From assembly GCF_023155745.1 (NCBI RefSeq), contig NZ_JAKNUS010000005.1, positions 1 through 64,000 of the forward strand: DNA of 64,000 nucleotides, given 5' to 3'. Below the pieces are notes generated by a model. That model ran no database searches and was not told where the DNA came from. It worked only from the letters and a program-made list of their open reading frames with translations. The position numbers and the translations under genes are program-made. Numbering within the stretch: position 1 is the stretch's first letter; each line of letters starts with the position of its first letter. Shown piece after piece: positions 48,170 through 53,192 of this stretch. The stretch is from Microbacterium kunmingense (GTDB taxonomy: Bacteria; Actinomycetota; Actinomycetes; Actinomycetales; Microbacteriaceae).

Positions 48170-49140
48170 GAGGCGCGCTGAGCGGCCGCGGCCTTGAGCG
48201 CGTCGAGGTCGGCCTTGTGGTCGGCGATGAACTCCTCCTCCGCGGCGAACTGGACGGTGCGGTAGCGGTCGCGGTAGTCGACCTCCTCGCGGCAGTCGAG
48301 ATCGGCGAGAGCGAGCTCGATCTCCTTCTCCTGCAACGCCTTCATGTCGGCGTCGTCCATGCCGGGCGCCTCTGGGTTGCTCTCCCAGTACGCGTTCTGC
48401 TCTTCGATGATGGACTCCTGCGCGTCGGTCTGCGCCGCGAAGCCGGGGAAGCCCGCCTCATCCATGCAGGTCGACCACTCCGCGTCGAGCTCGACGAACT
48501 CGGGCCGGGTGGGGAGGCCGGTCCAGAACTCGTCCATCGCCTCCATGAGCGGGGCGAACTCGTCGGACTGCGTGGGGTCCTCCTGCGACATCTCGTTCTG
48601 CGCCCAGCCGTAGCATCCGGCGGTCTCCCAGTCCCATTCGTAGGAGCCGTCATCGTTCATCTGGTCCTCGGGCACCGGCGGACCGTAGAGAGCCTCGTAG
48701 AAGGCCTCCTGCTCGTTCTCCGACAGGCTGTTGACGTAGTCGGCGTTGGGGTCGACGTACTCCTCGTCGGGCGGAACGTCCGACCCCGGGCTGTCCACCA
48801 TCCCATAGCCGTACTTCTCGACCCAGTCCCGGTCATCCGGTCGCCAGTCGTCGGCGCTGCCGAACGACAGACTGCCGGTCTGGACATTGGGGACGTAGTC
48901 GAACCCCTCCTCCGCCATGCATTCCGCGGTCAGCTCCTCGCGCTGGCGGTCCTCCTTCTCGAACCGGGCCTGCTGCTCCTCCTCGCTGAGGTCACCGCCC
49001 CACACCGCGTTGAGGTACTCCGCCAGCGGCGACGGCGGCTCCTCTTCAGACGACGTCGCGTTCGGCGACGAGCAGGCGGTCAGCACGAGCAGGAAGCCGA
49101 TGGCTCCCGAGACGGCGATGGACGAACGCTTCTGGCGCAC
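48166..49140 (-). CDS. Acidic lipoprotein, first gene of the MacAB-like operon
   Basis: 324 aa. A lipoprotein signal with lipobox LVLTAC (Cys near residue 23) is followed by a Ser/Glu linker and a soluble domain very rich in Asp, Glu, Tyr and Trp. Several Cys-Met motifs (AECMAEEGFDY, STCMDEAGFPGF, DLDCREEVDYRDRY) recur, suggesting two related half-domains with disulfides. No named family is recognised. Four-nt overlap with the adaptor gene implies a shared function, perhaps substrate or sensor. Confidence 0.8.
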   Translation of the reverse strand: MRQKRSSIAVSGAIGFLLVLTACSSPNATSSEEEPPSPLAEYLNAVWGGDLSEEEQQARFEKEDRQREELTAECMAEEGFDYVPNVQTGSLSFGSADDWRPDDRDWVEKYGYGMVDSPGSDVPPDEEYVDPNADYVNSLSENEQEAFYEALYGPPVPEDQMNDDGSYEWDWETAGCYGWAQNEMSQEDPTQSDEFAPLMEAMDEFWTGLPTRPEFVELDAEWSTCMDEAGFPGFAAQTDAQESIIEEQNAYWESNPEAPGMDDADMKALQEKEIELALADLDCREEVDYRDRYRTVQFAAEEEFIADHKADLDALKAAAAQRAS

Positions 49141-49291
49141 CAGTTCTCCTCGGTGTGTTCACGCTCCTCCCCCCTGGTGAAGCGGCACCACCGAAGCTAC
49201 CCGTCGACCGCGCGCCTTCCATCCATCCAGAGGATGAGAAGTCCCTCACGCAGCGTCGTGCTGCGGGATGACCCGGCCGCCGACGTCGACG

Positions 49292-49789
49292 TCAGGCGGC
49301 GAGGGCCAGGTACGGCTCCCAGCGGGGGTCGGAGCGCTCGGTGCCGCGCACCGTCCACTGCCCACCGCGTGGCGGTTGCGGCGTGACCCGCAGCTCCCAC
49401 GCCATCTCCTGCGGAGTGCGATCACCCTTGACGTTGTTGCAGCGCAGGCAGCAGGCGACGAGGTTCTCCCACGAGTCGGCGCCGCCCCGCGATCGGGGCA
49501 GGATGTGGTCGATCGTCGAGGCCGACTTCCCGCAGTAGCCGCAGCGGTGCCCGTCGCGGCGGAGCACGCCCCGCCGGGTGACCGGTACGCGCCGGCTGCC
49601 CGGTACGCGCACGTATCTGGTCAGCAGGATGACCGCGGGTCGGTCGTACGCCCCCGTGGCCCCCCACACCGGTTCGTCGCGGATGTGCTCCACGACGGTG
49701 GCCTTGTCGTTCATGACGAGCACGAGCGCCCGCTTGAACGACACGACGGCCAAGGGCTCGTAGCCCGCATTCAGCACCAGAGTGCGCAT
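49292..49789 (-). CDS. HNH endonuclease family protein
   Basis: 165 aa. Starts MRTLVLNAGYEPLAVVSFKRALVL, the usual start of this actinobacterial HNH family. The HNH core is RDGHRCGYCGKSASTIDHILPRSRGG followed by WENLVACCLRCNNVKGDRTP: two CxxC pairs bind zinc and the DH pair is catalytic. It is a probable nicking or repair-type nuclease of unknown role. Its GAGGGG ribosome site, 7 nt before the ATG, lies in a stem of the leader described separately. Confidence 0.9.
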   Translation of the reverse strand: MRTLVLNAGYEPLAVVSFKRALVLVMNDKATVVEHIRDEPVWGATGAYDRPAVILLTRYVRVPGSRRVPVTRRGVLRRDGHRCGYCGKSASTIDHILPRSRGGADSWENLVACCLRCNNVKGDRTPQEMAWELRVTPQPPRGGQWTVRGTERSDPRWEPYLALAA

Positions 49790-49796
49790 TCCTGTT

Positions 49797-49853
49797 CCCC
49801 TCGAATGGCCGGGACGGCTTTCACGGTTATTCGACTCGTGACGTTTCGAGGGG
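49797..49853 (-). promoter_or_regulatory. SD-sequestering stem in the HNH leader
   Basis: cccctcgaa (49797-49805) and ttcgagggg (49845-49853) are exact complements. In the minus-strand transcript the 3' arm contains the GAGGGG Shine-Dalgarno of the HNH gene, so the stem would hide it. Confidence 0.5.
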
Positions 49854-49864
49854 CGGAGGGCATG

Positions 49865-49894
49865 AAAAAAGGCGCTGTCTACAGACAGCGCCTT
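49865..49894 (-). terminator. Intrinsic terminator overlapping a 36-codon ORF
   Basis: An 11-bp perfect stem (49869-49879 with 49884-49894), 4-nt loop and a T6 run on the minus strand. The stop codon of the small ORF sits at the tip of the hairpin, and its last codons form the 5' arm. The HNH gene lies downstream. Confidence 0.8.
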
Positions 49895-49989
49895 GGCGCC
49901 ACGGTCATCCCGTGGCCTCCATCGACATGATGCCGAAGGACGAGCAGTCCCAACGCATCCATGGTTCGGATACGTGGTGCGCCGTTCAT
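49879..49989 (-). CDS. 36-aa small ORF upstream of the HNH gene
   Basis: ATG 49989 to TAG 49879, too short for routine gene finding. It starts MNGAPRIRTMDALG, contains LRHHVDGGHG, and ends RRCL. GGAGGG lies 6 nt before the ATG, one of the best ribosome sites in the window, and a TAGCCT box lies 38 nt upstream. The 3' end is built into an intrinsic terminator, so translation would affect whether RNA polymerase reads into the HNH gene. It may be a leader peptide or a free-standing small protein. Confidence 0.6.
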   Translation of the reverse strand: MNGAPRIRTMDALGLLVLRHHVDGGHGMTVAPRRCL

Positions 49990-50026
49990 CGGCTCCCTCC
50001 GCTTCTCTTGAGCGTCAGCTGAGGCC

Positions 50027-50032
50027 AGGCTA
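50027..50032 (-). promoter_or_regulatory. -10 box of the 36-aa ORF transcript
   Basis: TAGCCT on the minus strand, 38 nt before the ORF start, leaving room for a 5' leader with the Shine-Dalgarno. Confidence 0.4.
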
Positions 50033-50094
50033 GTACACGCGACACGCCCGGGGGTTCAGCGACGTGAACATCGTGTGACGTGTCGGAGAACGGC

Positions 50095-50125
50095 GAAGGG
50101 CGCCGGGGATGCCCCGGCGCCCTTC
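50095..50125. terminator. Perfect 14-bp hairpin after the M23 gene
   Basis: gaagggcgccgggg (50095-50108) pairs without mismatch with 50112-50125 around a 3-nt loop, 19 nt past the M23 peptidase stop. It has no long T-run, but its stability supports termination of the minus-strand gene. Confidence 0.65.
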
Positions 50126-50143
50126 GTCAGTGATCGCTGCGTG

Positions 50144-51058
50144 TCAGCCCGCGTTGGCGAGGAGCCATTCGTAGGAGTCGACGACGGAGCCGTTGATGTA
50201 GGTCTCGAAGTGGACGTGGCACGCGGTCGAGCGACCGGTGCTGCCTACGAGACCGATGATCTGCCCGGCAGAGACGGTCTGACCCGCCTGGACGGCGCGG
50301 CTGCCGTAGGTCATGTGGCCGTAGAGCGTGGACACGCGCTGGCCGTTGATGACGTGGTCGATGGTGACCGCGACGCCGTAGCCGCCGTAGCTCTCCTGGG
50401 AGACGCGGACGACGCCGGCGGCGGCGGCGAACAGCGGCTCACCACAGGGGGCGAGCATGTCGGTGCCCATGTGAGCCCCGCCGCGGGCGAACGTGCGGTC
50501 GCCGACGGTGAAGCCCGAGAGCGGCCAGCGCACCTCGCCGGTGCCCGGGGCGACCATCGAGAGGTCGACATTGGCGCGCGAGCCCGACGACGAAGAGGAC
50601 GACGCCGCGGAAGCGGCGAGCTCGGCCGCGATGCGCGCACGCTCCGCGGCGGCCTCCTCGGCCTTCTTCTTCTCGATCTCCTCCGCGGTGGTGGCGGAGT
50701 AGCTGCTGCGCGAGAGTTCTGATCCTCCGGCGTCCGAGGCGACCACGAGCGACTGGGCGTCGTCGACGGCCACCTGCTGCAGGGTCATCGGGTCGGCGGT
50801 GGCGCTCTCGACGGCGGCGTAGGCGGGCAGCGCCACGGTGGCGATGAGGCCACCGACCATCGTAAGGATCACGAGGGTGCGCGCCGGCTTCCGGCCGTTT
50901 CGAGGCCGTCGGCTCTTCGGCGGAGCGGCAACCGCCGGGCGGGCGGTCTTGAGAGTGCTGGTGCGAGCCGCGGGCTTGCGTCGGGTGCGGTCTCGGCGTT
51001 CGAGCCCCGGTCCGTCGGTCGCCGACGGGGAATCGGGGGTGTTGTCTAGATCGGCCAT
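50144..51058 (-). CDS. M23-family metallopeptidase
   Basis: 304 aa from ATG 51058, with GGAGG 5 nt upstream. A basic cytoplasmic N-terminus, a helix ending in ALPAYAAVESA (about 55-78, signal peptide or anchor), a charged coiled-coil linker (about 105-135) and a C-terminal LytM domain. Zinc ligands and catalytic His are visible: HMGTD and HVHFE, with GYGVAVTIDH and LYGHMTY. It should cut peptidoglycan cross-bridges or activate amidases during growth and division. Confidence 0.9.
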   Translation of the reverse strand: MADLDNTPDSPSATDGPGLERRDRTRRKPAARTSTLKTARPAVAAPPKSRRPRNGRKPARTLVILTMVGGLIATVALPAYAAVESATADPMTLQQVAVDDAQSLVVASDAGGSELSRSSYSATTAEEIEKKKAEEAAAERARIAAELAASAASSSSSSGSRANVDLSMVAPGTGEVRWPLSGFTVGDRTFARGGAHMGTDMLAPCGEPLFAAAAGVVRVSQESYGGYGVAVTIDHVINGQRVSTLYGHMTYGSRAVQAGQTVSAGQIIGLVGSTGRSTACHVHFETYINGSVVDSYEWLLANAG

Positions 51059-51231
51059 TGTCCTCCGGCGCCTCCGCGCATTCCTGCGCTGGCTCGTCGA
51101 CACTCAGTGTGGGGGCACGATGTGCGGGGCGGGCCGCGTGAACGACGAGCCGATGAGGCAATTCACGCGGAGTCCGTCGGCGGGCTTCTCGCCTGTGGAC
51201 CCTCAGAGGCTACCCGAAGGTAACGAATAAG

Positions 51232-53192
<1,961 letters not shown>

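Follow-up and report, generated by a model that had tools for sequence, protein, structure and literature searches.

Attenuators of the pyrBI type, of which pyrE is another, have a U-rich tract at which the polymerase pauses, and protein-binding leaders of the ribosomal-protein type are autoregulatory. In Escherichia coli, according to the accessible part of PMC4824070, a stop codon placed 5 rather than 28 bp before a terminator cut termination from ~90% to under 10%, ribosomes are unlikely to catch the polymerase within the first 100 bp, and the terminators of amino-acid attenuators lie more than 20 bp away, whereas the pyrBI terminator lies inside the leader frame. An upstream open reading frame (uORF) and a terminator precede one actinobacterial gene, ilvB-II of Corynebacterium, in an attenuator of the trp/his type (PMC10272879, in its accessible part), and in the Streptococcus fthC motif a leader stem often holds the in-frame stop of a uORF (PMC11109978, in its accessible part).

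We describe a leader before an HNH endonuclease gene of Microbacterium kunmingense that shares features with each of these systems. As in E. coli pyrBI and pyrE, its frame overlaps an intrinsic terminator that a close ribosome would block with no need of an antiterminator (for pyrBI, the accessible part of PMC4824070), and by analogy the position of its stop codon in the terminator loop comes close to the pyrBI arrangement. The frame runs into the terminator and a competing antiterminator was not found; in contrast to pyrBI and pyrE, the window has no TTTT between the putative transcription start and the hairpin, and thus no pause tract, while the leader has a conserved peptide N-terminus, a start codon within a covarying helix and a nuclease as its target. 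It differs from fthC in phylum and gene, and in fthC the third hairpin, not the stop-bearing P2, is terminator-like (PMC11109978, same part). The window, by which we mean the whole stretch of 64,000 nucleotides that was analysed, contains the following elements, in the order in which a polymerase on the minus strand would meet them:

51103-50144, minus strand: M23 peptidase gene, upstream of the leader
50027..50032, minus strand: putative -10 box TAGCCT of the leader promoter; relatives have a box of the same type before the uORF
49995..50000, minus strand: uORF Shine-Dalgarno sequence GGAGGG, five bases 5' of the ATG, read from the sequence
49879..49989, minus strand: uORF MNGAPRIRTMDALGLLVLRHHVDGGHGMTVAPRRCL, 36 codons, ATG start, stop codon TAG at 49881-49879
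49984..49993, minus strand: 5' strand of P0, GCCGATGAAC, holding the uORF start codon; partner 49941-49932, from covariation
49954..49974, minus strand: P1 hairpin CGTATCC-GAACCAT-GGATGCG within the uORF, from pairing in the alignment
49932..49941, minus strand: 3' strand of P0, GTCCTTCGGC, uORF codons 17-20; partner 49993..49984, from covariation
49898..49916, minus strand: P2 hairpin GCCACGG-GATGA-CCGTGGC, directly 5' of the terminator, from covariation
49869..49894, minus strand: putative intrinsic terminator hairpin, 11 bp, G+C-rich, with the uORF stop in its loop, from a scan, covariation and the stop position
49845..49853, minus strand: CCCCTCGAA, 5' strand of a 9-bp stem covering the HNH Shine-Dalgarno sequence, from the window fold
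49809..49826, minus strand: P3 hairpin with loop AAGCCGT (49820-49814), from loop conservation and covariation
49797..49805, minus strand: TTCGAGGGG, 3' strand of the same 9-bp stem, including GAGGGG (49802-49797), from the window fold
49292..49789, minus strand: HNH endonuclease gene (PF14279 HNH_5, PF01844), 165 aa, ATG at 49789

The terminator reads AAGGCGCTGTC-TGTA-GACAGCGCCTT (49894-49869) with six T at 49870-49865, and 75 bases separate this T run from the HNH start in the window. The 241-nt window leader folds better than its shuffles (z = -5.08, 0/200 equal). A terminator scan taken alone performed about as expected by chance (2 found vs. a mean of 1.3 in shuffles); the terminator rises above chance because its stop-in-loop position is conserved, its stems covary and a single strong model match falls at the HNH gene, as set out below. 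Two repeats lie nearby, namely a perfect 14-bp G+C-rich inverted repeat at 50095-50125, located after the M23 gene and ahead of the leader promoter (seen by eye), which is perhaps the terminator of the M23 gene, and an 18-bp tandem repeat of 2.2 copies within the HNH gene (49572-49610).

The HNH protein passes the Pfam cut-off for PF14279 HNH_5 (52.4 bits vs. 27.5), and its gene is single-copy, being the sole match in its own genome. A match was present in 193 of 198 genomes of the genus and in 90 of 98 genomes of the class (E 0.001; weak HNH-domain matches are counted in the class figure). An AlphaFold model of the protein made from 20 similar sequences had a mean pLDDT of 44.4, too poor to use, and no search was based on it. 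Relatives from named genomes were the best 80 of 366 confirmed and hence the nearest ones, mostly Microbacterium. Leaders were extracted from 108 loci and the window, giving 109 (L044 was omitted as too short), and a script detected a T-run terminator in 101 of them and none in the other eight (L080, L087, L090-L093, L104 and L107).

To ask how closely the leader is tied to this gene, we used two covariance models, one of P0, P1, P2 and the terminator (R1) and one of P3 (R2). In the genome of the window R1 found the leader at E = 1.7e-35, followed by the same hairpin on the other strand (7e-4), and beyond those two no match below 0.5; R2 found P3 at 2e-13 and nothing elsewhere below 0.04. Across 32 chosen genomes of the family, 26 had one R1 match each with E below 1e-10, of which 25 adjoin the HNH gene and the remaining one is located at the end of a contig. 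R1 gave no match at 0.01 in two genomes that are 99% complete and have no HNH match; of four genomes that are less complete and have no good HNH match, two had no R1 match and two had weak ones only. Judged by its genomic context, the leader belongs to the HNH gene. In two loci the leader is kept while the HNH gene looks broken or misread: the HNH motifs of L301 are spread over more than one reading frame, and the HNH frame of L302 stops part-way.

These results bear on a different reading, in which the uORF would be a stand-alone small protein or a dual-function small RNA with its own terminator and the HNH gene would be reached by unregulated read-through. The presence of a promoter box, a terminator and a conserved peptide of its own is what such an element would have, but its strong matches adjoin the HNH gene (all except the one at a contig end), the two near-complete genomes that lack HNH lack the leader too, the stop in the loop is retained through switches of reading phase (below), and P3 and the HNH Shine-Dalgarno sequence form one conserved block downstream; we consider this reading very improbable.

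Sixty-two uORFs, from the named loci and the window, could be matched to a terminator, and 57 of these carry a shared peptide motif (I-R-T-M/T-D-A-L-G-x-x-V-L-x-H), the ORFs without it (L067, L096, L108, L109, L110) having been left out of the count. Scored by the first base of the stop codon, the stop begins within the terminator loop in 55/57 motif-bearing uORFs vs. 0/57 and 0/57 in the other two frames; the whole stop codon is inside the loop in only 5/62, because its last base or bases usually lie on the 3' arm. Two of the ORFs without the motif, L067 and L096, still stop in the loop. When phase is measured against the conserved core of the arm (a script-set arm end gave 28, 19 and 10 instead), 38 loop-stopping uORFs cross the arm in one phase, reading RRCL, and 17 in another, reading KALS, and the HNH gene tree implies about six switches of phase, which indicates that the position of the stop is kept though the frame over the arm changes. 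One further leader, L105, has its uORF in the third phase, with the stop short of the loop.

Nine uORFs were recovered from twelve further, mostly HNH-divergent loci; three have their stop in the loop, and the other six continue across the hairpin and end 16-29 nt beyond the HNH start. The hairpin is also read through by the uORFs of L007, L062, L079, L081, L098 and L108, the stop of L116 is at the edge of the loop, and those of L099, L105, L109 and L110 lie 12-17 nt short of the 5' arm's end. In all of these non-loop cases a ribosome finishing the uORF would lie on or past the 5' arm, and the more divergent relatives often appear to read through the hairpin rather than stop there. The earlier note on this DNA, drawn from its letters, had claimed a small ORF with a strong Shine-Dalgarno sequence that ends in the terminator, and the sequences of relatives bear this out.

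The peptide itself seems to matter over part of its length. Codons 7-20 had a pN/pS of 0.27 in frame vs. 1.39 and 1.10 in the other frames, while codons 21-33 had a pN/pS of 1.08 (53 uORFs in each case), so that the N-terminus appears to be under purifying selection and the tail to be free; some more distant Microbacteriaceae leaders encode a peptide like IHTMDARALFRIRHSSQ. This pattern could also be read as that of an arrest peptide, which would stall the ribosome near codon 20 on a small-molecule or nascent-chain cue and, by leaving P2 and the terminator free, turn HNH off. The sharp end of amino-acid conservation at H20 would agree with it, as would the spacing, which is what we would expect if the motif occupied the upper part of the exit tunnel while codon 20 was in the ribosome; but P0 and P1 constrain the same codons at the RNA level and could explain part of the conservation, and we regard an arrest-peptide sensor as quite unlikely.

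Stems were assessed in alignments of 49 leaders from the uORF start to the T run (A1) and of 54 and 48 leaders extending to the HNH start (A2 and A3), with redundant or oddly built leaders excluded, and pairing was counted against slid partners and against shuffles, a test that ignores relatedness. In A1, 91.9% of cells in P1, P2 and the terminator were paired, with 43 double-changed cells vs. 10.2 in shuffles; in the tests of P0, of P1, P2 and the terminator together, and of P3, the cells paired, the double-change cells and the covariation score each exceeded all 500 shuffles. Parsimony on the HNH gene tree counted 13 kept double changes in P2, 13 in P3, eight in the terminator, five in P0 and none in P1, and slid controls gave one for P3 and none for P0. 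P0, indicated by RNAalifold, joins the region of the uORF start (GCCGATGGAC) to codons 17-20 (GTCCTTCGGC) and has one A.C mismatch among its pairs in the window genome. Its double-change cells number 13 vs. 3.5 in shuffles and are confined to two positions (one has CCG/CGG, CUG/CAG and CAG/CUG, and the other changes mainly from G-C to A-U), its pairs with a double change are not above shuffles (2 vs. 1.9), and 33 of its 68 inferred changes break a pair. P1 is paired in 91.8% of cells, yet has no kept double change in A1; its compensated changes are in outlying rows only (e.g. L007, L092, L098, L109, by eye), and the peptide alone can explain it.

The same material speaks to amino-acid attenuation. 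Starvation attenuators of the trp/his kind have a short translated leader before a terminator, as here, and a family of the same order (f13) has a His-rich frame over a similar hairpin (by eye). In the codon table of 53 uORFs, though, we found no run of regulatory codons, and a helix scan with partial folds of the 49 A1 leaders revealed no conserved helix of more than 5 bp that could act as an antiterminator, so we rejected His/trp-type attenuation for Microbacterium. The leader stop and the terminator are, moreover, no more than 20 bp apart, unlike in such attenuators (PMC4824070, accessible part), and against the trp/his type as seen in ilvB-II (PMC10272879, accessible part) the HNH leader lacks diagnostic codons and an antiterminator and has its stop inside the terminator loop. 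For the leaders as a whole, starvation sensing of this kind is scarcely credible. The lack of an amino-acid run had been pointed out before and is confirmed, with the addition that the peptide itself appears selected.

Transcription of the leader would start near 50020. In 56/62 leaders a TAGCCT-type box is found 28-38 nt 5' of the uORF (0.3 expected from shuffles), and this is the sole candidate promoter that we found. A simple scan of both strands of 48500-51500 returned no sigma-70-like site, but the scan overlooks the conserved TAGCCT box as well and is thus of limited sensitivity and weak as evidence. An independent promoter for HNH between 49790 and 49865, which the earlier note had named as a finding that would speak against its proposal, was not picked up in that interval by the simple scan, nor was a conserved box seen there by eye in A2. 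Taken with the conserved uORF frame, peptide N-terminus, stop and terminator, the promoter box supports the translation-controlled attenuator layout which that note had put forward.

We then considered the region just before the HNH start. The 9-bp stem between CCCCTCGAA and TTCGAGGGG had been suggested to hide the ribosome site of HNH. It is indeed a perfect pair in the window that covers GAGGGG, and the predicted minimum-energy fold of the window favours it over P3; it is common to the near-identical leaders L002 and, in extended form, L031, but is not a general helix, so that in the alignments proposed as a check the codon-level conservation of the uORF and the covariation of the terminator were borne out and this stem was not, P3 being the conserved element. 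A conserved stem covering the Shine-Dalgarno sequence is not claimed in any other form either: predicted mean pairing of this sequence is above 0.6 in 36/54 leaders, a figure that has no shuffled control, and the partners in those leaders differ between clades.

P3, by contrast with that stem, has a nearly fixed loop, AAGCCGU, in which A, A, C, C and U occur in 54/54 rows, the first G in 53 and the second in 50. P3 with its outer stem is paired in 94.4% of cells (48 rows), with 29 double-change cells vs. 5.2 in shuffles; in the window genome its closing pair is A.C. Beyond the family, a hairpin with an AGCC(A/G) loop lies about 13-37 nt before the start codon in 22/60 class-level regions vs. 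0.48 expected from shuffles (eight of the 22 come from closely related members of family f31, and L201 is counted through a different hairpin) and in 5/43 order-level upstream regions vs. 0.73 expected, ten loci without a recognised start having been dropped before the 81 upstream regions were taken. The stems of these hairpins vary and compensate while AGCC is kept (21 double-change cells vs. 4.8 in the 18 rows of alignment A5, which omits repeats of near-identical hairpins and L163 and whose rows were selected for having the hairpin, so that its pair counts lean towards it). An exact 15-mer, GCGCGAGCCACGCGC, has 24 copies in the 98 genomes of the class, and 12 of these copies are at the HNH start; in a class search with a third model (R3) 21 of the top 24 matches were just 5' of HNH; R3 was built from those sites or near copies and therefore informs on specificity only. 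Outside the class an AGCC-type hairpin was seen in 1/16 upstream regions (L250), which may be chance. Two loci of family f32 (L235, L236) have a strong hairpin before the HNH start, CGAGCCC-TGACC(C/T)-GGGCTCG, whose loop differs from AGCCA.

Autoregulatory leaders are marked by a conserved hairpin of fixed loop sequence close to the start of a single gene, and P3 resembles them as a single covarying hairpin with a near-fixed loop next to the Shine-Dalgarno sequence of one gene in several families; it differs in being known here from sequence alone and in having no Rfam family at cut-off. The occurrence of AGCC[AG]-loop hairpins before orthologues suggests a trans-acting, perhaps autoregulatory, site, for which P3 is a candidate, and the grouping of P3 within this wider set of hairpins before HNH appears to be new. 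Alternatively, P3 could be part of a pseudoknot or a general feature of mRNAs instead of a protein site, which we think unlikely. In several class-level orthologues the Shine-Dalgarno region has a GGC with which the loop GCC could form pairs (by eye), but Microbacteriaceae have GAGAGGA there, without GGC, and still keep the loop; a general mRNA feature is hard to square with the exact 15-mer, half of whose copies across the class are at the HNH start. A possible pairing between the P3 loop and either P2 or the Shine-Dalgarno sequence was a judgement by eye and was not kept.

In other families of the order, inspection by eye found a similar hairpin, GGCG(C/T)(C/T)GT...ACGGCGCC, before HNH in rows of f7, f8, f13, f14 and f16 and did not find it in rows of f2, f5 and f6. 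In f13 (L120, L126, L128, L131, L132) the frame over the hairpin is His-rich, e.g. HHHVHHHH, and no T run follows the hairpin; in f7 a uORF-like frame of L179 ends in the hairpin loop, and frames of L180, L182 and L183 seem to reach an ATGA overlap with the HNH start. The f7 and f13 frames were likewise read by eye, and open frames are cheap in such G+C-rich DNA. A broader evolutionary account, possible but doubtful in our estimation, is that the AGCC-loop hairpin is an ancient site for the HNH protein on its own mRNA across much of the class, to which several families later added a ribosome-gated terminator.

From the anatomy, conservation, covariation and gene specificity that we observe, we infer how the leader might work, and consider it fairly probable that it is a cis-acting control leader of HNH with two layers, pyrBI-style translation-coupled attenuation and translational control through P3. 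In the first layer, RNA would begin near 50020 and the terminator at 49894-49869 would stop transcription by default. A ribosome that initiates promptly and stays close behind the polymerase would occupy the 5' arm and loop as the 3' arm is made, turning HNH on; if the ribosome is late or absent, P0 would close over the uORF start, the terminator would form and HNH would be off. Since P0 pairs the start codon with codons 17-20, a late ribosome would be locked out and the leader would act as a timer of the pace of translation. P0/P1 or P2 would need to pause the polymerase, which must be assumed because ribosomes are unlikely to catch it so early (PMC4824070, accessible part). In the second layer, P3, beside the HNH Shine-Dalgarno sequence, would act on translation through a factor in trans that reads its loop and may be the HNH protein.

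We rejected a known RNA family as an explanation, as none reached cut-off in the window, the leader or the loci of seven relatives. At gathering score Rfam gave only two tRNAs in the window and no family in the relatives' loci, and its best weak match to the leader was BcKCsr2 (20.9 bits vs. 40 needed). Weak matches to two Burkholderia sRNA families at 49864-49973 on the minus strand are far under their cut-offs and probably reflect a shared terminator shape. In the main texts of the open-licence literature searched, including the accessible parts of PMC6429828, PMC11109978 and PMC2965389, the HNH leader is unmentioned (an earlier listing elsewhere is possible), and the same search, with sources partly accessible, returned no paper on the function of this HNH gene.

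The HNH gene is near-universal in the genus and common in the class, and a conserved, gene-specific leader with two layers suggests that its dose is closely watched. The peptide, the terminator with a stop in its loop and the hairpin with a near-fixed loop offer handles for experiment. As a natural test case from a high-GC actinobacterium, the locus could show whether ribosomes stay close enough to the polymerase for a terminator about 125-150 nt past the inferred start to be blocked. If the doubtful evolutionary account given above is true, a near-universal orphan HNH nuclease would be an RNA-recognising, self-limiting enzyme and, in the families that added the terminator, would be produced only while translation stays in step with transcription.
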